Shown here piece by piece: positions 5,908 to 61,435 of a stretch of 64,000 bases of DNA (the first letter of the stretch is position 1; each line of letters starts with the position of its first letter). Origin of the DNA: SAR202 cluster bacterium. Its GTDB lineage: Bacteria > Chloroflexota > Dehalococcoidia > Lucifugimonadales > UBA3495. The stretch lies in assembly GCA_013204585.1 (NCBI GenBank), contig JABMNL010000030.1, positions 1-64,000 of the forward strand, read 5' to 3'. The notes below the pieces were generated by a model. It did no database searches. It saw only the letters and a program-made list of their open reading frames with translations, and was not told the origin of the DNA. Both the position numbers and the translations under genes were made by a program.

Positions 5908-7113
5908 TTAGAAGGCCTTTTTCAAAACCTCCATCACCTGTTCTACCGAGGTGATGGGTATGGCGTTATTACGGCAGCCGCCGTCGGTGAGCACCAATTC
6001 GGCAATCCTGGGCAGGTCTGCCTCGGGAATCTCCAGTTCGCGGATTCGGTGGGGCATACCCAGTCCCAGAATAAAGTCGTCCACGGCCCGGGCGGCCATC
6101 TCAGCCGCCACATCGTCGCTCATCCCCCTGGTGTCCAAACCCGCCGACCGCGCAAGGAGTGCCTGCTTGGCAGCAGAAACCGGGCGGTTGAATTCCATGA
6201 CGTAGGGCTGGGTGACGCAGGAGGTGTACCCGTGTCCCACCGAATATTGCACCCCAAGTATGTGGCCGATGGCATGGCTCATGCCGGTGGCGAAGTTGGG
6301 CGCTCCCATCATGGACAGCCACGCGGCCACCAAACATTGTTGCCGGGCTTCAGTATCGCCGTTCGACTCACGCGACATGGGCAGATAGGTGAACAACATT
6401 TCCGCCGCAGTGAGCACCGGTGCGTCGATGGCCGGCTGGTTGCCGGTGGTATACAGCCGCTCGATGCAGTGGTCCAGGGCTTTCACTCCGGTGGATAGCC
6501 AGAGCCAATCGGGGGTTCCCTCGGTCATCGCCGAGTCCAGAATTATCAAATCGGAGTACAAACGGGGATGGCGCACCCGTATCTTGTGCCCCACCTGGTC
6601 GTCCAACACGTTGCCGCCGCCCTGGTTAAACTCGCCAGCAGAAAGCGTGGTCGGGATGGACACCTGTAGCGGCAAATCCTTGCCGTCCAGGTTGGGGGTT
6701 AGCATCATGTCTTGCTCTTCGCCCAACCTGCGTAGCTGCTCCACCGTGGTGATTCCCTCGACCATCATCACGGCAATCATCCGCGCGGCGTCGGAGATGG
6801 TGCTGCCGCCGACGCCAACCAAGGTGTCAACATTGTTGGCCACGGCCAAGTTGGCGGCCTCCACGGCGGTGGACAACGGCGCGCGCTGGATTAGGCCCGA
6901 ATAGACTCCGGCGCACATATCACCCAACCCGTCGACAATCCGGGTAACCGAGTTGGTCTTTTCGGCCACAGACCGGCCCGACAGCACCAATACCCGCTTA
7001 CCGCCCAGGTTCTGTACCTCGTCTCTCAGTGAATCAACCTTCCCGTGTCCGAACACTATTCGGGTGGGGACAGTTGGGTTGAATTCGCCCTGTAGAAGGT
7101 TTTGTTGGGTCAT
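5908..7113 (-). CDS. Iron-containing alcohol dehydrogenase (maleylacetate reductase-like)
   Basis: This is a group III Fe-ADH family member of 401 residues. The N-terminal half has the nucleotide-binding motif GVGGSTISDAA (residues 100-110). The C-terminal helical half has the expected metal ligands Asp193, His215 (KALDHCIE), His280 (GMSHAIGH) and His294 (VGHGYTSC). The overall pattern, including PTRIVFGHGK, resembles maleylacetate reductases and related catabolic dehydrogenases. It acts in the cytosol with NAD(P)H; the substrate is not fixed. The TPR gene follows immediately in the same operon. ATG with GGAG about 11 bases upstream. Confidence 0.88.
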   Translation of the reverse strand: MTQQNLLQGEFNPTVPTRIVFGHGKVDSLRDEVQNLGGKRVLVLSGRSVAEKTNSVTRIVDGLGDMCAGVYSGLIQRAPLSTAVEAANLAVANNVDTLVGVGGSTISDAARMIAVMMVEGITTVEQLRRLGEEQDMMLTPNLDGKDLPLQVSIPTTLSAGEFNQGGGNVLDDQVGHKIRVRHPRLYSDLIILDSAMTEGTPDWLWLSTGVKALDHCIERLYTTGNQPAIDAPVLTAAEMLFTYLPMSRESNGDTEARQQCLVAAWLSMMGAPNFATGMSHAIGHILGVQYSVGHGYTSCVTQPYVMEFNRPVSAAKQALLARSAGLDTRGMSDDVAAEMAARAVDDFILGLGMPHRIRELEIPEADLPRIAELVLTDGGCRNNAIPITSVEQVMEVLKKAF

Positions 7114-7338
7114 AGCTGCGTCTCCGGCCGACAGTGTACTAGGTCAGAGCGATATAGTAGCAAATATGCAGCCCGTGCCACAGCCCTTCAGATTTCTGGC
7201 CCCCGTGACACTTGGCCCTCCGACAAGGTGCCCTTTGGCTCTATTCGGTTAAAGTTCCACTCCTTACCGTTATGCTACTGAACTCAGCTAAAGCAGGGAA
7301 CGTATCTCTGGAATCAGACGAGTTTTAGATTATTAGTG

Positions 7339-7372
7339 AAGATTTTCAGGTCAAACTAACTAGGAAAATCTT
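7339..7372. promoter_or_regulatory. Inverted repeat upstream of the Met-rich operon
   Basis: A perfect 9-bp inverted repeat, AAGATTTTC and GAAAATCTT, is separated by 16 bases. It lies in the 407-base gene-free region (7114-7520) between the divergent alcohol dehydrogenase and the Met-rich gene. It is a candidate operator or leader hairpin. No convincing -35/-10 pair was found next to it, and the rest of the gap shows no tRNA or gene. Confidence 0.4.
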
Positions 7373-7520
7373 GCCGAAATAATATCCTCAGAATACCCCT
7401 CTTCTGCAGCTGTATCCGGCACCTTCAGGTATCCAACCCTACACCACGCGCTCTCCTCTCTATACGGTGACCTACGGCAATAGGCTTGGTTCGTGGGACG
7501 GGCTCATAGGAGGATTACTA

Positions 7521-8168
7521 ATGGGACTGATGGACAAAATGATGGACAGAATGATTAAGAACATGTCCGTCGAAGAAAAAGAAACGATGATGCTCAAAAT
7601 GATGCCTAGCATGATGGAAGGCATCGACGTCAATAAGATGATGCCCAACATGATGGCCCAGATGGGCAGGCTCGTCACATTAACTGGCATCGCCGTTTTC
7701 ATCAACCAGGCACGCAACGACTATGAGTTGAAAGAAGAGTTGGGCGAAACGCTGAACAACTTGAAAGAAAATATGCCTGAGTTTGCTGAAATGATGCGTG
7801 ACATGATGCCGGTCATGATGTCCGTCATATCTGAAACCGGACTGATGAATGGCATGATGAACACCATGGGCAAGATTATGCCGGTCATGATGCCGGTGAT
7901 GGCACCTATGATGCGCGAGATGATGCCCATCATGATGCAAGAGAAGATACCCGAGGTTATGGCGGAACACGAAAGCGTGCGCGAATTCATACCAGAAATG
8001 ATGATGGAAATCATGCCAGAATGCATCGACACGATTCTCCCGATGTTCACACCAGAAAATAATACCGAGTTTCTTTCACGCTTGGCCGAAAAGATGAGCC
8101 GCGCCGCAAGTCGAAAAGAGGTGTCTGGCGAAGATAAAGAGAACCTACAAAAGGAACTAGTTGGCTAG
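7521..8168 (+). CDS. Methionine-rich protein with MMxxMMPxMM repeats
   Basis: The family is not recognised. The 215-residue product has 45 methionines (about 21%), one cysteine (Cys168) and many acidic residues. Methionines are ordered: MMLKMMPSMM (23-32), MMRDMMPVMM (91-100) and MMREMMPIMM (130-139) share one ten-residue motif, and MMPNMMAQM (40-48) is a variant. A mildly hydrophobic stretch lies at 50-62, but there is no signal peptide or clear membrane helix. The start is the ATG seven bases after AGGAGG (7508-7513). It heads a run of co-directional small genes. Thioether binding of Cu(I), oxidant scavenging or hydrophobic client binding are possibilities, none shown by the sequence. Confidence 0.85.
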   Translation: MGLMDKMMDRMIKNMSVEEKETMMLKMMPSMMEGIDVNKMMPNMMAQMGRLVTLTGIAVFINQARNDYELKEELGETLNNLKENMPEFAEMMRDMMPVMMSVISETGLMNGMMNTMGKIMPVMMPVMAPMMREMMPIMMQEKIPEVMAEHESVREFIPEMMMEIMPECIDTILPMFTPENNTEFLSRLAEKMSRAASRKEVSGEDKENLQKELVG

Positions 8169-8251
8169 GCCAGTGCCAGCTTTAATCTCAAACCTAACTA
8201 GCCATTAAGATTTTAGGATCCGGTCTGATACCAAAACAGGAGGCAATGAAG

Positions 8252-8926
8252 ATGAGTTTCATGGACTCGGTGATGGACCCAGTGATTAAGATACTGCCAC
8301 GGAAAAAACGCGAAGAGATGATGATCAATATGATGCCGTTGATGATGGAGGGCATCGACATGAACGAGTTGATGCCCCGGATGATGGCAAACATGTTGCA
8401 AGATGTCACGGCAGATGACCTGGTCAACTACCTCAAAGAGGCGTTGAGAGACAAAGAAAAACTCGGCGAACTGGGGGCAAAGCTCCAGGAAGCCAACCTA
8501 ATGGCGCAGATGATGTTCCGTGTTGACGTCAGCAACCTTGGATTTGAAGAGACTGTCTCTTCCTTGACCGAGTCTGCCCGTCAGAATGGTTGGATTATTC
8601 CCGACACTCGGGATATCCAGAGCGAATATCACAAGGCTGGTCTGACGGATATGACACGGTGCACGATTCTCTATTTCTGCAATCCGCAGGGGGGCTACAA
8701 GATTCTGACCGGCAGCGATAAAAACAAGGCCATGTCTGCCATGATGCCGATGGGAGTCAGCGTCTATGAAACGACTGACGGGCACGTAGAAATTGGCGCT
8801 ATGAATCTAAGCTTGATGAGCAACTTCTTCAGCGGTGTTGTCAAAGAAGTCTTCAAAGACGGCGGCGAACGCTACCAGAAGTCGCTTGTGGACATCGTAG
8901 AAAAGAGAGGCCGACATGGAGGGTAA
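8252..8926 (+). CDS. Methionine-rich N-terminus fused to a DUF302 domain
   Basis: The 224-residue product has two parts. Residues 1-50 are a methionine-rich segment paralogous to the preceding protein: MMINMMPLMMEGIDMNELMP parallels its residues 23-42, with the shared phrase MMEGID. After a charged helical linker, residues about 91-218 match DUF302 (TT1751-like alpha/beta fold), with FEETVSSLTESARQNGW, CTILYFCNPQ and the late VSVYE strand. DUF302 proteins have no firm biochemical function. The ATG at 8252 lies eight bases after AGGAGG; another ATG at 8246 is too close to it. The last 11 bases overlap the next gene. Confidence 0.85.
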   Translation: MSFMDSVMDPVIKILPRKKREEMMINMMPLMMEGIDMNELMPRMMANMLQDVTADDLVNYLKEALRDKEKLGELGAKLQEANLMAQMMFRVDVSNLGFEETVSSLTESARQNGWIIPDTRDIQSEYHKAGLTDMTRCTILYFCNPQGGYKILTGSDKNKAMSAMMPMGVSVYETTDGHVEIGAMNLSLMSNFFSGVVKEVFKDGGERYQKSLVDIVEKRGRHGG

Positions 8927-9158
8927 CTTCTCCATGGGGATATGGATCGTATTCCCCATAATCTTCTTTGTATTGATGTTCATCGGCATGAGCCGGATGT
9001 TTGGCATGGGGGGCTTCGGGCAAAGGAATCATGAATCTCCGAGGATTTCCGGTGACCCTACTCAGCCCGAGGCGCCTCTGGACATACTCAATGGGAGATA
9101 TGCCAGAGGAGAAATCACCAAAGATGAATTCGACCAGATGAAACAGGACCTAGCGTGA
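8916..9158 (+). CDS. Small membrane protein with SHOCT domain
   Basis: The protein has 80 residues. An N-terminal membrane helix (about 8-27, IWIVFPIIFFVLMFIGM) is followed by a Met/Gly-rich loop and a C-terminal SHOCT motif (about 54-80, LDILNGRYARGEITKDEFDQM). SHOCT is a short helical element often found at the ends of small membrane proteins and is thought to mediate assembly. The start overlaps the DUF302 gene by 11 bases with AGAGG just upstream, indicating translational coupling with it. Confidence 0.85.
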   Translation: MEGNFSMGIWIVFPIIFFVLMFIGMSRMFGMGGFGQRNHESPRISGDPTQPEAPLDILNGRYARGEITKDEFDQMKQDLA

Positions 9159-9247
9159 GGATAGCTCGAGCAGCAGACCTGGCGAGAGCTCCATCTCATC
9201 AAGCGTACTTAGAACTCCGATTCTGTGGGTTACTAGGAGACAGGCCC

Positions 9248-9733
9248 ATGACCGTATCACGAAGTACTCAGAGCCGACTTGAGGCCCAGGGGTACAGTTG
9301 CTCCAACGAGCAGGAATTCGCCGTCATCGTTCCGTGGCTGCGGTTTTCCCCCGCCGTGTGCACCGTGCTCATGGGAGTCGGCACCGCCCTGGCGCTATCG
9401 CCGTTGCTGTGGGTGTTGGTTCCCATCGCCGTATTGGGAGCGCTGTTTTCGACCCATCCCTTCGACCTCGTCTACAACCATGGGCTTCGCCACCTGACCG
9501 GGACCCAGCCGCTACCGAGCAACGGAACCCCCCGGCGCTTTGCCTGCGGCATGGCCGCCGTGTGGTTGGTCGGGACGGCCCTTGCGTTCAACCTGGACGT
9601 GGCTTGGCTGGGCTATCTGCTTGGGGGACTCCTCACGGCGGTAGCGGGTACCGTGAGCGTGTCGCACTTTTGCATCCCTTCAACCATCTACCAGACACTG
9701 TTCGGACGGCAGAAGCGGCGGAGCGCGGCCTGA
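9248..9733 (+). CDS. DUF4395-like membrane protein
   Basis: This 161-residue integral membrane protein has four predicted helices in two pairs. VCTVLMGVGTALALSPLLWV and VPIAVLGALF come first, then a loop with HPFDLVYNHGLRHL and a GTPRRFACGM motif, then two more helices. The loop pattern with P..PRRFA matches DUF4395, a family of unknown function often found near redox or sulfur genes. The ATG is chosen because AGGAGA lies seven bases upstream; the reading frame is open further upstream without a start of similar quality. It follows the SHOCT gene by 89 bases. Confidence 0.72.
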   Translation: MTVSRSTQSRLEAQGYSCSNEQEFAVIVPWLRFSPAVCTVLMGVGTALALSPLLWVLVPIAVLGALFSTHPFDLVYNHGLRHLTGTQPLPSNGTPRRFACGMAAVWLVGTALAFNLDVAWLGYLLGGLLTAVAGTVSVSHFCIPSTIYQTLFGRQKRRSAA

Positions 9734-9753
9734 ACCCAGTCGGGAGGGATTTA

Positions 9754-10074
9754 ATGTCCAAGTACCTTGTAAGAGTGTCTTATACGACAGAAGGCGTGAA
9801 GGGGTTACTTAAAGAGGGCGGAACCTCTAGGCGGGCCCAGGTGGAGCAACTGGTAAATGCAGCAGGAGGCTCCCTGGAATCCTTCTAGTACGCCTTCGGG
9901 GAAGATGACGTGGTGATAATAGCCGAGGTTCCAGACCACGCGACCATGACCGCCATCGCACTCACGGTCGGTGCGACAGGCACTGTCGACTTAACCACCA
10001 CCGTGCTAATAACTCCCGAAGAGGTGGACGAGGCCGCCAAAAAGACGGTGAGCTACCGCCCACCCGGCACTTAG
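9754..10074 (+). pseudogene. GYD domain protein gene interrupted by one in-frame TAG
   Basis: The 107-codon frame encodes a complete GYD-domain protein: SKYLVRVSYTTEGVKGLLKE, ARRAQVEQLVNAAGG, then, after the stop, YAFGEDDVVIIAEVPD and TTTVLITPEEVDEAAKK. A single TAG at 9886-9888 (codon 45) follows LESF, where the family usually has an aromatic residue, commonly Tyr (FY.xxG). No frameshift is present on either side, and GGGAGGG lies six bases before the ATG. It is either a fresh nonsense mutation, a sequencing error or a readthrough site. TAG ends other genes in this window, so general reassignment is unlikely. GYD proteins are small ferredoxin-like proteins of unclear function. Confidence 0.8.
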
Positions 10075-10098
10075 GGCGGCTCGTAACGGGAGGTAAAC

Positions 10099-10362
10099 AT
10101 GAACAACGCTAGTACTGATGTCTTCCGAGCAACAATTAGCGGGATTTGGATAGCGCTCGGTTCCATCATTCTGGTGTGTGGATGAGGCTGTTGAATCGCA
10201 TCCGCCGCCGGAAACGATTCAACGCTATGGTGCGGAGTTGGTTGCGTGCTCGGCGGTCCGGCGCTAATTGGCGCAGGCTTGGCGGCGTACTTCCTTTTTG
10301 GTTCGAAGAGACGAAGTTCCAACTGGCCGTCGAATTTGTCTTTCCACCCCAAATGCATGTAG
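10099..10362 (+). pseudogene. Small two-helix membrane protein frame with two in-frame TGA
   Basis: A strong GGGAGG (10088-10093) precedes ATG at 10099. The first 28 codons, MNNASTDVFRATISGIWIAL and onward to ILVCG, give one membrane helix and then TGA (10183). The same frame goes on past a second TGA three codons later and encodes IASAAGND, then a second helix in GGPALIGAGLAAYFLFGSKR, ending in TAG at 10360-10362. Hydrophobicity and a basic cap after the second helix suggest one original gene of about 85 residues. It may be decayed, wrongly sequenced, or in fact only a 28-residue peptide. The family was not recognised. Confidence 0.5.
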
Positions 10363-10404
10363 TCCACCCAATCGGTCATGGCTGCGTCTCCGATGTGTGG
10401 CAAG

Positions 10405-10770
10405 CTAGGCCAACGGAATGATTATGGTGAACCTTGGCTCGCTGCTGACCACCCGGGTCGAATGGCCGGTGCCTTCTAGGTCTTCGGCCAAGAGCACCGT
10501 ACCAGCGCCGTAACGCTTCAGGGTGCCGTCGGGTGTTCCCAACTCCACCTCTCCGGTGAGAGATATGCTGTACTGCCGCCGGGGCGCAGTGTGGAAGTCC
10601 AAGAAATAACCGGGCTCATACTGCCGAAACGATATGCCACCGGTCTGCTCAGTGGCCGACGCTAAACCGTGAGCCCCTTCCAAATCGGTGAACGGCTGCA
10701 TCTCCATTTCTTTTTCGTCAATCACGGAATTTCCGTCGGGCCCGGTGTATACGTGCACGAACTTAGGCAT
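10405..10770 (-). CDS. Cupin-fold protein
   Basis: This 121-residue protein looks like a single cupin barrel. FHTAPRRQYSISLTGEVELG corresponds to the first cupin motif and LKRYGAGTVLLAEDLEGTGH to the second, with a histidine at the end. The classical HxH pair is reduced, so metal binding is uncertain. No catalytic assignment is possible. The ATG is preceded by GGAG. It lies 68 bases after the squalene/phytoene synthase family gene on the same strand and may be part of that transcript. Confidence 0.7.
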   Translation of the reverse strand: MPKFVHVYTGPDGNSVIDEKEMEMQPFTDLEGAHGLASATEQTGGISFRQYEPGYFLDFHTAPRRQYSISLTGEVELGTPDGTLKRYGAGTVLLAEDLEGTGHSTRVVSSEPRFTIIIPLA

Positions 10771-47108: not shown

Positions 47109-49634
47109 TTATACCTTTGCGCCTCTCAGCCTCAATGAATTGCTTACTACCGTTACTGAGCTGAAGGCCATGGCCAGCGCGGCCAAGACTGGATTTAAGA
47201 AGCCCTGGTCCCCAAAGAAGAAGTTCAAACTATCCGGCACGCCGCCAGTACCTTGGAAGACAGGGTACAGGACTCCGGCAGCCACTGGAATCAGCATCAC
47301 ATTGTAGAAGAAGGCCCAGAATAGGTTCTGCTTGATGGTTCGGATTGTCTGGCGGCTCAGGTTGAGCGCAGTAGCCACGCCGTTTACGTCGCTCCGCATG
47401 AGCGTTATGTCTGCTGACTCCATGGCTACATCGGTGCCGCTGCCCATGGCCATGCCAACATCGGCCTGGGCCAGCGCCGGGGCGTCGTTAATACCGTCGC
47501 CCACCATCGCCACAACCCTGCCTTCTGCCTGTAGCTTCTTAACCACCTCGGCCTTGTCCTGAGGCAGCACTTCCGCCACAACCCGGTCCAAGCCCAATTG
47601 CGCTGCTATGGCCTGGGCCGTCTGAGCGTTGTCGCCGGTAAGCATCACCACTTCCAGCCCCATACGCCGCAACTTCTCCAAGCCTTCATAGGCTTCCGGC
47701 TTCACCGTGTCGGCCACCGCAATCAGACCCATCGCAGTCTCGTCGGATGCCAGGAACATGGGTGTCTTGCCCTGGGCCGCCAGTTCCGACGCCTTTGCCA
47801 CCAGGCCGTCCAAGGCTATTTCCGAGTCCTCCATTAACGCCTGGTTCCCAAACCGGACCGTGTGGCCATTCACCTGGGCCACGATTCCCCTGCCTGGGAT
47901 AGCCTGAAACTCGGACACCGTTGCCAATTCCAGCCCCCGGTTTTGGGCCTCGTTAACTATTGCCGCGCCCAAGGGGTGCTCGGAACCGCGCTCAGCGGAT
48001 GCGGCCAGCAGCAAAAGTTCTTGTTCTGAGCTACCGGGCGCGGCAGAAGCCACCAGGTCAGTCACAACCGGTTTTCCGCTGGTAAGAGTGCCAGTCTTGT
48101 CCAAGACCACGGTATCGACCTTGTGGGCAATCTCCAGGGCTTGTGCTTGCTTAATCAGCACCCCCATTTCTGCGCCCTTGCCGGTACCGACGATAATTGC
48201 CGTGGGTGTGGCCAGTCCCAGTGCGCACGGGCAGGCTATTATCAGCACGGAAACCAAGACCAGTGTTGAGAACGTTAGCGCCGGAGCCGGGCCCAGCAGC
48301 ATCCAGAACAGGAAGGCCGCCACGGCCGCGATTATGACCGCTGGCACGAAATACGCCGCGACCTGGTCGGCCAACCGTTGAATGGGCGCTTTCGAGCCTT
48401 GGGCCTCTTCCACCAGATGGATTATCTGGGCTAAGACGGTCTCCCCACCCACCTGGGTGGCCTCAAAGTGGATGGCCCCGTTGAAGTTGATGGTTGCCCC
48501 GTAAACTTTCTCGCCGGGGCCCTTCTCCACCGGCATGCTTTCGCCGGTGAGCATTGATTCGTCCACCGCCGAATAGCCCTCAGTCACCACTCCGTCCACC
48601 GGCATTCTCTCTCCGGGGCGCACCAAGACGATATCTCCGGGGACGACTTGGTCCACTGGGATGTCGACCTCTTGGCCATCGCGCACCACTCGCGCCGATA
48701 CTGGCCTGAGTCCCATGAGTCGCCTGATAGCCTCCGAAGTTTGGCCTTTGGCTCTTGCTTCTAGGAACCGGCCCATCAGTATCAATGCTACGATGATGGC
48801 CGCAGTGTCGAAGTAGACCTTGGCATCAATACCATTGTCGGCCAGCACCCCCGGCGAGAACTCATTGAGCAACACCACCGCGACGCTATAGACGTAGGCC
48901 ACAGTAGTGCCCAAAGCGATGAGGGTGTGCATGTTGGCCGCGCCATGTCTGAGTGCGCCCAGGCCCGAGGTGTAGAAATTGGACCCGGCCCAGAACTGCA
49001 CCGGGGTCGCCAAGGCCCACAACAAGAATGGGTAGTAGCCTTGGGCCATGAACTTGGACACCCAAGGGAAGGCGTCGAATGTGCCGAGGAACAGGAGAAT
49101 ACCACCGCTACCGGCGAAAACCAGGCGGTTCCGCAATTCCCGAATCTCCTTTACTTTTGAGAGCCGCTCCAGCTCCCTTTCTTGGTCTCCAGAGTCGTTG
49201 AAGCTTTCGACTCGGTAACCGGCATCTTCAACTGCTTTTTGCAGGTCGGAAAGCTCGGCCATCCCCGACACAAACTCCACCGACGCCCTTTCCACGCCCA
49301 AGTTGACGTTGGCTTTAGAGACTCCCGGAACACCAAGCAGGGCATTTTCCACGTGGCCCACGCAGGACGCGCAGGTCATGCCGCCAATGTTTAGCGACGC
49401 CGATTGGGTGCCTATCTTGTACCCGGCGCCGGAGACGGCATCCTGTATCGCTTGCACGGTGACTTGGGCAGGCACGAATTCCACCGAAGCCTTTTCGGTG
49501 CCCAAATTGACCGATGCTGCAACCACGCCGGGAACACCCTTAAGGGCGGTCTCCACGTGGCCAACGCAAGCGGCACAGGTCATGCCTTCAACCGGCAAAC
49601 TAAGTTTCTTGATGTCCTTTTTTGTGGTAACCAT
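47109..49634 (-). CDS. copA: Copper-translocating P-type ATPase
   Basis: This P1B-type ATPase of 841 residues exports Cu(I). Two N-terminal HMA domains carry [12 protein letters not shown] and [12 protein letters not shown]. The membrane part contains the transport motif [14 protein letters not shown], followed by the phosphorylation site [16 protein letters not shown] and [16 protein letters not shown]. The double HMA and CPC motif indicate Cu(I)/Ag(I). The start ATG at 49634 is favoured because it leads straight into the first HMA strand. It lies in the CsoR-DUF1330-CopA-YHS operon. Confidence 0.95.
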
Positions 49635-49663
49635 AATTAAAGTCCTAGGAACCAGTCCTTTTG

Positions 49664-49951
49664 TTAGACTCCTTCCGCAAATATCACGTTTCCAGTGGAC
49701 GCGCTCTGGCGGATCTTTTTCAACTCTGCATATTCGGGTGAGTTGTACCAAGCTTTGGCCCGCTCCATATTCTCAAACTCCAGAACGACTACTCGCTTGG
49801 GAGCCCACGTTCCCTCAGCAGCTTCACCCTCGGCGCCACGTACCAGGAATTTACCCCCGTAGGCAGCTATCGTATCGGGCACGCCAGCACGATATTTGGC
49901 GTAGGTATCCATGTCTGTTATATCGATGTCCGCAATCAAATATGCTGCCAT
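49664..49951 (-). CDS. DUF1330 protein
   Basis: This 95-residue DUF1330 protein (dimeric alpha/beta-barrel fold) has [50 protein letters not shown] and [16 protein letters not shown]. Its function is unknown. The ATG at 49951 has GGGGAG seven bases upstream. It is a paralogue of the interrupted gene directly upstream and lies within the copper operon, 29 bases before copA, so a link with copper handling is suggested by position only. Confidence 0.88.
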
Positions 49952-50305: not shown

Positions 50306-50572
50306 TCACTTATTGGAAAGGATATACAAGTCCTTGAGCTCTTCAACTATCTCTTGGGCACGACCAGATTGGATGCCTTCCACCACGCAGGACTGCAAGT
50401 GCCCCTCAAGCAGTAGGCTTTCCATTTTTTCGATGGCCCGCCGCACGGCGTAAGTCTGCTTCAGCACATCCACGCAGTACTTATCCTCCTCCAGCATTTT
50501 TCTGATGCCTGAGAGGTGCCCTTCGATGTAGTTCAACCGCTTGAGAGCGTCACCCTTAACTTCTCGAATCAA
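50306..50572 (-). CDS. csoR: CsoR-family copper-sensing repressor
   Basis: This 88-residue all-helical metal-sensing repressor (DUF156/CsoR-RcnR-FrmR) has the Cu(I) triad Cys33 (KYCVDVL), His58 (EGHLQ) and Cys62 (SCVVEG), diagnostic for CsoR rather than RcnR or FrmR. Binding of Cu(I) releases it from GC-rich operators. The start is TTG, with GGAGGG six bases upstream. It is the first gene of the leftward operon with DUF1330, copA and YHS, and an operator-like palindrome lies just upstream, so autoregulation is likely. Confidence 0.92.
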   Translation of the reverse strand: MIREVKGDALKRLNYIEGHLSGIRKMLEEDKYCVDVLKQTYAVRRAIEKMESLLLEGHLQSCVVEGIQSGRAQEIVEELKDLYILSNK

Positions 50573-55195: not shown

Positions 55196-55275
55196 AATGG
55201 AAACAACCCTTTAAGGGATGCAATTCTTTGGGCACGGCTACGTACGCCGCACCTACGTTGGGAGGGTGGAAGACT

Positions 55276-56667
55276 GTGTTCGTTGAAACGGTAAGAATCG
55301 AGAGCCTGGCCAACAACAGCTATGTGGTTGGTTCGGAACAGTCCGGGCGCTGCATCGTCATTGACCCTGCTCGGGACGTTGACCAGTACGTCAAGATAGC
55401 GGCCAACCACGGCACGCGCATTACCTACGCCTTCGAAACCCACGTACACAACGACTTTGTCTCCGGAGTTCGCGAACTTGCCGACCAGACCGGCTGTCAG
55501 GTCGGTGCCAGCGCATCGGGCGGACTTCTTTTCCCGTCAGTCCGCCTCAATGAAAACGACGAGTTCGATTTGGGCGAGTTCCAAATTCGAGTCCTCCATA
55601 CCCCAGGCCACACACCGGAAAGCATTTCGTTCATGGTGGAAAAACAGGGCCGACCCACCGCCATATTCACCGGCGGGGCCCTAATGATGGGCGGCGCGGC
55701 GCGGGTTGACCTGTTGGGCATCAAGATTGCCCCCTTCTTAGCGCGCTGGCTGCACAATACCATCCACGAAAAGCTGCTCAAACTCCCCGACGACGTTCAG
55801 GTTTACCCAACCCACGGCGGGGGATCTTTCTGCTCTGCTGCGGCTGCTGGAGGCGGAGGAGTGCCCACCACCATCGCCCAAGAACGGTTGACCAATCCAT
55901 TTGCTGCCGAAGCTGAAGAAACCAGCTTTGTGCGATACGCCCTAACCGGCCTGGGCTCCTATCCCAGTTACTATAAATACATGGCCGACATCAACAGACG
56001 GGGCCCAGACATACTCGGCGGCGTCCCCCGTCTGTCCTCTTTGACCGCCCTTTCCGTGCGTAATCACCTGGATAACGAAGCCGTCCTAATTGACGCCCGG
56101 CCAGAGCGAAGTTTTAACACCGCGCATGTGCCCGGCTCGTATGCCGTCCCTCACGGCAACGCCATGGCCACCTGGGTCGGCTGGGTGGTGCCCTGGGGGC
56201 AGCCCCTAGTGCTCTTGTCGTCCGACGCCAGCCACCACGACGATATGATGCGACAGTTAATCCGCATCGGTTTCGACCAGGTCCACGGCTTCTTGGCCGG
56301 GGGCATCGAAGCCTGGAAATCGGCCGGTTTGCCCGTAGAGGTCACCGACAGAATTGACCTGGACCGTCTCAAACAAGCCCAAGACTTGCCCTCCGCCCCA
56401 CTGATTATTGATGTCCGTCAGCGCAGTGAGTACACCGAGGGTCACATTCCCGGTGCACTGAACATTGAGCTAGGTGAGCTCCAGGAGCATCTGGTCGGTC
56501 TGCCCCGCGAACTCCCGCTGGTAACCGTCTGTGCCGGAGGTATGCGGGCAACCACCGCTGGCAGCATCCTACAGCGGGACGGTCGAGAAAACGTACAGGT
56601 GGTGGACGAATACGGCACCCCTGCCTGGATTGAACGGGGTTACCCGTCGGAGACCGGCGAAAAATAA
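55276..56667 (+). CDS. Persulfide dioxygenase-like MBL-fold protein with two rhodanese domains
   Basis: The 463-residue protein starts with a metallo-beta-lactamase domain: THVHNDFVSG (metal ligands), HTPGHTPESISF, GGALMMGG and YPTHGGGSFC, matching ETHE1/persulfide dioxygenases. Two rhodanese domains follow. The first has no catalytic Cys (LLSSDASHHDD), and the second has Cys419 in VCAGGMRATT and is probably active. Together they would oxidise and transfer persulfide sulfur, giving sulfite for the neighbouring sulfite oxidase. GTG is the preferred start, nine bases after GGAGGG; the frame is open further upstream to 55228. Confidence 0.9.
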   Translation: MFVETVRIESLANNSYVVGSEQSGRCIVIDPARDVDQYVKIAANHGTRITYAFETHVHNDFVSGVRELADQTGCQVGASASGGLLFPSVRLNENDEFDLGEFQIRVLHTPGHTPESISFMVEKQGRPTAIFTGGALMMGGAARVDLLGIKIAPFLARWLHNTIHEKLLKLPDDVQVYPTHGGGSFCSAAAAGGGGVPTTIAQERLTNPFAAEAEETSFVRYALTGLGSYPSYYKYMADINRRGPDILGGVPRLSSLTALSVRNHLDNEAVLIDARPERSFNTAHVPGSYAVPHGNAMATWVGWVVPWGQPLVLLSSDASHHDDMMRQLIRIGFDQVHGFLAGGIEAWKSAGLPVEVTDRIDLDRLKQAQDLPSAPLIIDVRQRSEYTEGHIPGALNIELGELQEHLVGLPRELPLVTVCAGGMRATTAGSILQRDGRENVQVVDEYGTPAWIERGYPSETGEK

Positions 56668-60034: not shown

Positions 60035-60754
60035 CTATGCGGGTTGAGTGACTGCATCCTTGAAGCGGACTTCCAGTTCTTCCAACAGGGTTTGCTCCCC
60101 TGGGTCAATTTCCGAGTGCACCCAGTCGATGATCCAGCGCGGGTCTTCGGCCGTGTCGTCAATGAGTAACCGGCGGACCATATAAAGCTGTCCGGCTTCG
60201 TCTATCTCGTCGCGCACCAGTGAGCAGACAAAGGCCTCTTCGTTCTCAAAGTGGTCCAGTTCCAGAATTCGCACGCCCATCAACCGGCTATGGAGGTGGC
60301 GGATGGTGCGGGCGGTTACTTTCTGCTCGCCCAAGACTTCTTTGAGGGCCTCTTCCACTTCATGAAAGCGCTCCTCAAGCTCTTTGTGCTGTTCTTCTTC
60401 CAGAGAGAAGCCTGCCGCACGAACGCTCTCTTCCAGTCCTGCGGAGTTACCCAAGGCGATGAATTTAGCCAAGTCACCGGCCTTGCCCGCCAATTCGGCA
60501 TGTTCGGTCTCGTTGTCCCGGGCTGGTTGGCTGTTCTGCAACGGACCGGTCATCACTTCGTCTTCCACCGTCGCATGGTAGAGAATCTGTTTAACCCAGA
60601 AGCTAAACGCCTCATTCAACTCGGCAATGTCTTCCATGGTTGACGCTTTGGCGGCCAGGGCTTCGGTCCGGTCTGACACCGCACGAAAAGCCTTGTGCAT
60701 CAGCAGCATTACGTCAATTGGGTCTTCCAACTTGGTTATGCTTTCGGTCGTCAT
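60035..60754 (-). CDS. Hemerythrin-like (HHE) domain protein, second of a pair
   Basis: This 239-residue four-helix protein has hemerythrin-type di-iron ligands: LLMHKAFRAV (His), ILYHATVEDEVM (His and Glu), RTIRHLHSRL and LELDHFENEEAF (His/Glu). Such proteins sense or carry O2, NO or iron, or protect against oxidants; the role here is unknown. A long charged helix inserts between ligands two and three. It follows its paralogue by 36 bases, so the two form an operon. Confidence 0.85.
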   Translation of the reverse strand: MTTESITKLEDPIDVMLLMHKAFRAVSDRTEALAAKASTMEDIAELNEAFSFWVKQILYHATVEDEVMTGPLQNSQPARDNETEHAELAGKAGDLAKFIALGNSAGLEESVRAAGFSLEEEQHKELEERFHEVEEALKEVLGEQKVTARTIRHLHSRLMGVRILELDHFENEEAFVCSLVRDEIDEAGQLYMVRRLLIDDTAEDPRWIIDWVHSEIDPGEQTLLEELEVRFKDAVTQPA

Positions 60755-60790
60755 TTCTTAACCTTCGGGCGTTACGGGCCCCAGGTCCTA

Positions 60791-61435
60791 TCAGGCTACC
60801 GGTTGGGCTTGGTTGATTCGTATTTCCAAGGCCTGAAGTTGTTCGTTCTCTTTGGTGGTGAGATCTTGGGACATCCAATCAAGAACCCAACGTTGGTCGT
60901 CGGCATCGTGGTCGATTAACAGTCCACCCACGACCTCCAACTGACATTCGGTGGAGAGACAGTCGCGAATTAGGGGGAGAACCATGGCTTCCTCGGTCTC
61001 CAAGTGGTCCTCTTGGGCAACACGAAGGGCAATAACCTGACCGTAGAGGTGCTGCTTGGTGCGAGAGATAACACTGGTGGAGCCGATGTCTTCTTCTAAG
61101 ACGGTCATAACATCTTGAACGTAATCAAGAAGTCTGGCGTACTCGGCGTCTTCTCGCTCAAGGAGGGCCCATTTGACCCGCTCAACGGGGTCATGGACGG
61201 CGGCACGGCGGGACTCGTTTACGAACTTGGACATCACAGTGCCGACTTCTTTCTCGGCGTGGTACATGATGGCGGTGGCCCAGGCGGTAAACGCCAGCTT
61301 AAAGGGTTGCAGGCTACATCCATCTTCCAGGCACCGGGCCAGTTCAACCGTCCGGTCAGCCTCGCCCCGCAGGGCTTTGTGAATCAAATACATCGCGTCG
61401 ATGGGTTGCTCTAGGGTGGTGATTTCCAAGGCCAT
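60791..61435 (-). CDS. Hemerythrin-like (HHE) domain protein, first of a pair
   Basis: This 214-residue paralogue of the next gene keeps the same ligand frame: MYLIHKALRG, IMYHAEKEVGTVM, RTKQHLYGQV and AQEDHLETEEAM. It also shares the C-terminal LLIDHDADDQRWVLDW (compare LLIDDTAEDPRWIIDW). The pair probably arose by duplication and may form a hetero-oligomer. The ATG is preceded by GGGAGG. The upstream region is AT-rich with direct repeats. Confidence 0.85.
   Translation of the reverse strand: MALEITTLEQPIDAMYLIHKALRGEADRTVELARCLEDGCSLQPFKLAFTAWATAIMYHAEKEVGTVMSKFVNESRRAAVHDPVERVKWALLEREDAEYARLLDYVQDVMTVLEEDIGSTSVISRTKQHLYGQVIALRVAQEDHLETEEAMVLPLIRDCLSTECQLEVVGGLLIDHDADDQRWVLDWMSQDLTTKENEQLQALEIRINQAQPVA

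Follow-up and report, generated by a model that had tools for sequence, protein, structure and literature searches.

What might a pair of methionine-rich proteins be doing at the head of a run of small genes in a SAR202 cluster bacterium? The window considered here is the whole stretch of DNA that was analysed, 64,000 nucleotides from contig JABMNL010000030.1, and the two proteins are called P1 and P2. An earlier note had described them as paralogues followed on the same strand by SHOCT, DUF4395, GYD and two-helix genes, by implication a functional cluster. The domain names given there are right, with SHOCT, DUF4395 and GYD all recognised by Pfam. The genes concerned are the following:

7521..8168, plus strand: P1, a 215-aa Met-rich protein with three MMxxMMPxMM motifs and a C-terminal MPxC module
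8246..8926, plus strand: P2, Met-rich up to about residue 90 and joined there to DUF302
8916..9158, plus strand: one-helix membrane protein with a C-terminal SHOCT domain (Pfam 4e-10; hydropathy)
9248..9733, plus strand: DUF4395 membrane protein with four hydrophobic segments (Pfam 2e-17; hydropathy)
9754..10074, plus strand: GYD-domain gene (Pfam GYD match) with an in-frame TAG at 9886-9888
10099..10362, plus strand: remnant of a small membrane protein with two helices, a 28-aa start followed by out-of-frame sequence

Methionine accounts for 20.9% of the P1 residues, and the exact motif starts at residues 23, 91 and 130 (23-32, 91-100 and 130-139), in agreement with the composition of about 21% and the three copies given in the earlier note. 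The DNA pattern scan of the window placed these copies at 7587, 7791 and 7908; the chance expectation from shuffled window DNA is 0 matches. When the P1 residues were shuffled 100,000 times, at least one motif appeared in 77 shuffles and three motifs in 0. The Met pairs with a spacing of four numbered 25 against 9.0 expected (z = 6.7), a value reached by 0/5000 shuffles. Spacings of 3, 4, 7 and 8 are in excess and those of 2 and 6 are depleted, which fits one helix face, as had been proposed from the regular four-residue spacing. Hydropathy analysis showed P1 and P2 to be free of signal peptides and membrane helices. P1 was matched by no Pfam or NCBIfam model, and a PDB sequence search with P1 returned nothing significant (weak matches with E of 0.2 or worse were ignored). 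The AlphaFold model of P1 has helices throughout at low confidence (pLDDT 50, pTM 0.29), and is therefore too poor for a fold search or for proving an amphipathic bundle. P1 and the N-terminal part of P2 are regarded as soluble and, as we infer, helical.

The second protein has the motif once, with its DNA at 8318, and is paralogous to P1 across about 83 N-terminal residues (44.6% identity, E = 4e-10). Its C-terminal half matches DUF302 (Pfam E = 5e-12, 45.9 bits against a gathering score of 23); the paralogy and the fusion noted earlier are both supported. No NCBIfam model matched P2, and among solved structures 1Q9U comes closest to it (E = 6e-6). The closest DUF302 proteins, L215 (38% identity) and L216 (31%), have an N-terminal transmembrane helix at the place of the Met-rich domain of P2, according to alignment and hydropathy. 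P2 retains the cysteine of the C-N-P motif; the cysteine of the (M/L)PC motif is Met in P2 and Cys in 23/24 other DUF302 proteins. DUF302 matches to P2 were obtained in 10/300 genomes of the window's own phylum and in 21/297 genomes of a Desulfobacterota sample, and the Met-rich part was covered in none of them. Within the genomes surveyed the Met-rich-DUF302 fusion was found only in P2; only part of the genomes was sampled, and so the fusion may exist elsewhere.

Homologues of P1 were first reached through a DNA pattern for the motif, among the matches listed, and profiles were then built from them. Among these listed matches most were unrelated, such as YidC-like membrane proteins and Met/Pro-rich tails. 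The family profile matched 7 other genomes of 393 in the class, 3/297 genomes in the Desulfobacterota sample (including G671, where the match is to DUF302 only), and 3/194 genomes of one Desulfobacterota order (one already counted in the Desulfobacterota sample). The family is thus rare, at about 2% of the class genomes sampled. Single-protein scans were negative for P1 in genome contigs and plasmids and for P2 in viral contigs; viral contigs also gave no matches to the family profile, and plasmids and phages none to single family members. The profile search that had been suggested revealed homologues of P1, namely the Met-rich proteins L090, L179, L180, L191, L193-L195, L197, L204 and L205 from Dehalococcoidia and Desulfobacterota. 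Two of these were scanned against Pfam and no model was found. The P1 family is real and uncatalogued, being covered by no Pfam or NCBIfam model.

Sequence alignment of P1 and its homologues showed a common N-terminal run, EEKxxMM..MMPxMMEG(I/V)(D/N)M..MMPxMM, and a C-terminal MPxC module. The MPxC is invariant in 10/10 aligned sequences (for example MMMEIMPEC in P1 and MMMEIMPQC in L179), and the E, R, F and G positions of the module are kept in 9/10. P1 differs from its homologues in being longer through extra Met repeats, and it lacks both the FFADMT segment of most of them and a PadR neighbour. Pairwise identity is 70% in the 40 Met-majority columns, compared with 36% for the remaining columns and 32% for the aliphatic ones, which indicates that methionine as such is retained, the exception being L179. 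The latter, from a region of 40% GC, has Ile at 11/39 methionine positions and retains 22/39 methionines. Of the 72 non-Met residues in the Met-majority columns, 47 belong to the group I, L, V and F, and 3 are Cys or His.

Two incomplete relatives were also noted. The homologue in L090 (5872-6258, a Chloroflexi MAG) is frameshifted just past MPHC, with the remaining C-terminal module in another frame. At L196 (6700-7800) an MPxC module lies downstream of an ArsR-like helix-turn-helix frame, in another frame, and has no N-terminal Met run. Other Met-rich types were encountered as well. A Met/Cys-rich type from several bacteria (L066, L067, L071 and L097) carries MTCEMT..GMVCKM near the C-terminus and looks metal-binding; another type, with repeated MMPKMMxxCF, lies at a contig end of a Dehalococcoidales MAG (L070, 3630-3911).

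Do P1 and P2 belong functionally with the genes behind them? The segment that carries them is bounded as follows:

5908-7113: Fe-dependent alcohol dehydrogenase (Fe-ADH), flanking gene
7108..7126, unstranded: left direct repeat GGTCATAGCTGCGTCTCCG (repeat search, 18/19 identical to the right copy)
7127..10373, unstranded: insert that separates Fe-ADH from the cupin-like gene and is missing in ten congeners
10374..10392, unstranded: right direct repeat GGTCATGGCTGCGTCTCCG (repeat search, 18/19 identical to the left copy)
10405-10770: cupin-like flanking gene, named by look only (no Pfam match)

The tblastn searches with the flanking genes and the junction sequences showed that ten other congeneric genomes have the cupin-like gene within tens of bases of Fe-ADH. 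Only in the window are the two separated by about 3.3 kb (a 3.27-kb insert), and the block is therefore an insertion private to one species. The repeat sequence is part of the Fe-ADH leader, which suggests that the insertion duplicated it; no integrase or transposase was seen in or near the insert. Binning contamination was considered and rejected, because native genes are present on both flanks. The GC contents are unlike across the genes (P1 47%, P2 50%, DUF4395 64%, neighbours 58-60%), and the cassette thus looks like a mosaic. No match to P1 was found in 146 related genomes. DUF4395 was matched in 4/146 relatives, in unrelated contexts with the other cassette genes absent around it, and GYD in 47/98 genomes, with the other cassette genes absent at the loci checked. 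Since this is a one-species insertion whose DUF4395 and GYD genes are found apart in relatives, the gene run is not a conserved operon.

The neighbourhood survey of the homologues, which had been proposed as the check on co-occurrence, points in the same direction. The tblastn searches with the window's DUF302, SHOCT, DUF4395 and GYD detected none of them in eleven homologue loci, the SHOCT query being short and its negative weaker; in this sample the idea of a functional cluster fails. Instead, a PadR regulator adjoins the family gene on the same strand in L191, L192, L193, L194, L195 and L197, which represent four families and 6/7 Dehalococcoidia loci. The four PadR proteins that were scanned have Pfam E of about 1e-18 to 1e-21, and the copies are 48-77% identical to that of L191. 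PadR is absent beside L196 and four Desulfobacterota-side loci (L180, L198, L204 and L205), and no match was found anywhere in the window. An adjacent PadR is a trait seen among the Dehalococcoidia members, not a defining one for all family members. The gene names in these neighbourhoods were assigned by eye, except for those scanned with Pfam.

Our best reading, put forward tentatively, is that methionines line one face of soluble helices, that this face attaches to the membrane or to hydrophobic surfaces, and that P2 uses it in place of a membrane anchor. P1 and the N-terminal part of P2 reached the genome on the inserted cassette. Paired Met residues every four positions might give kinked helices a broad and flexible hydrophobic face, which could bind to exposed hydrophobic surfaces, for instance those of the membrane, of hydrophobic stretches in other proteins or of small toxicants of hydrophobic character. 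PadR-type regulators often respond to hydrophobic compounds; in the Dehalococcoidia, such a compound or membrane stress probably induces the gene by way of the adjacent PadR. In P2, the Met-rich domain stands where the nearest DUF302 proteins have their transmembrane anchor, and it would keep DUF302 close to the membrane or to P1. A redox or soft-metal switch may be a further contribution of the invariant MPxC cysteine.

The hydrophobic face is supported by the Met spacing pattern, since it fits one helix face. The hydrophobic role is also supported by the predominance of I, L, V and F among the substitutions in the Met columns and by the Ile swaps in L179; the share of these four residues is about that of single-base ATG changes (6/9), and so it favours this role weakly. 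The replacement of an anchor in P2 is consistent with the membrane helix being absent from P1 and P2 and present at the N-terminus of L215 and L216. The PadR neighbour in six Dehalococcoidia loci and the all-helix AlphaFold model, at a confidence too low to settle the matter, are also in line with this reading. Against it, the high identity of the Met columns relative to the aliphatic ones suggests that thioether chemistry may matter beyond hydrophobicity. A fuller version is unlikely to be right as a whole: a PadR-controlled soluble family whose Met-faced helices are an exchangeable hydrophobic docking module, which substitutes for a transmembrane anchor in P2 and places DUF302 at the membrane.

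The main rival is that P1 and P2 bind soft metals (Cu(I), Ag(I), perhaps Hg or As) through thioethers and the MPxC cysteine, as a cytosolic sponge or chaperone. This is rather improbable but stays alive, because Met is conserved well above other hydrophobic residues and the MPxC is invariant. Copper genes are also encoded within the window, at a distance of about 39 kb, close to the 37 kb given in the earlier note:

47109-49751: CopA, identified by eye only
50306-50572: CsoR, identified by eye only

However, no copper gene was recognised beside the homologues whose neighbours were read by eye, and the partner regulator is PadR, not CsoR, CueR or CopY; the copper hypothesis thus gained nothing from the neighbours. 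Cys or His rarely replaces Met in the conserved columns, and L179 has lost nearly half of its methionines, which also speak against metal binding. Two other regions of the same window are recorded in their own right, both by eye: a metallo-beta-lactamase-fold protein resembling persulfide dioxygenase-rhodanese fusions (55228-56667), and two related tandem proteins that look like hemerythrin-like domains (60035-61435).

Another possibility, which we consider unlikely, is that the cassette is decaying accessory DNA of no current benefit and that P1 and P2 are relics. The cassette occurs in one species only, the GYD gene is interrupted by a TAG, and the last frame is broken. The residue at the TAG position is Tyr in most homologues, and the GYD gene is therefore probably a pseudogene or a sequence error. 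On the other hand, the P1, P2, SHOCT and DUF4395 frames are intact, and P2 still matches the DUF302 profile well. Good ribosome binding sites lie upstream of P1, P2, DUF4395, GYD and the small frame, as had been observed for most of the genes. Scans gave no Rfam match and only chance-level promoters and terminators, and there were no PHROGs or PADLOC matches, which leaves phage or defence roles unsupported. A reverse-strand frame at 10071-10403, for which no relatives were found, is probably antisense noise.

The least likely explanation is that P1 and P2 are sacrificial oxidant sinks whose Met is oxidised and then repaired by methionine sulfoxide reductase, like MrpX/BcrX. The high Met content and the occurrence of DUF302 genes in sulfur-oxidation clusters (PMC6305408) fit this. 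Against it, MrpX resides in the periplasm and its gene shares a transcript with MsrPQ-type genes controlled by an ECF sigma factor (PMC8315932). A signal peptide is missing from P1, no msr gene was found in the cassette among the frames and Pfam matches, and the conserved C-terminal module would be superfluous in a sink.

The P1 family is an uncatalogued group in which conservation is highest for Met, a residue that usually exchanges freely. The family gains its first genetic handle in PadR and its first domain fusion in DUF302, and the role of the methionines (metal, redox or soft hydrophobic contact) becomes testable.

Among the known systems, MrpX/BcrX resemble P1 in their very high Met content. 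These proteins are periplasmic, contain MXKDX repeats, are encoded in an msrPQ operon and are controlled by an ECF sigma factor, and no such feature was found for P1 or P2; neither msrPQ nor an ECF sigma factor is among the neighbouring frames of the cassette or their Pfam matches. DUF302 (PF03625; 1Q9U) has been reported in a CsoR-rhodanese-sulfur dioxygenase module of Arthrobacter plasmids (PMC6305408), adjoining a metal-resistance cluster (PMC7760498), and in a list of microoxic proteins (PMC6515984). The literature search found no report joining DUF302 with Met-rich proteins or with DUF4395. P2 keeps the C-N-P motif of this domain and has a Met-rich domain instead of the transmembrane helix of its nearest relatives, so that DUF302 gains a new context. 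Among Met-rich domains that bind hydrophobic segments, the M domain of SRP54 is the best known (PMC4468861). P1 differs from SRP54/Ffh in having no GTPase domain and no sequence match to it (Pfam, NCBIfam and PDB); the resemblance would lie in the working, in that the Met-faced helices of P1 and P2 might hold hydrophobic partners much as the Met-rich helices of the M domain are proposed to bind signal sequences.
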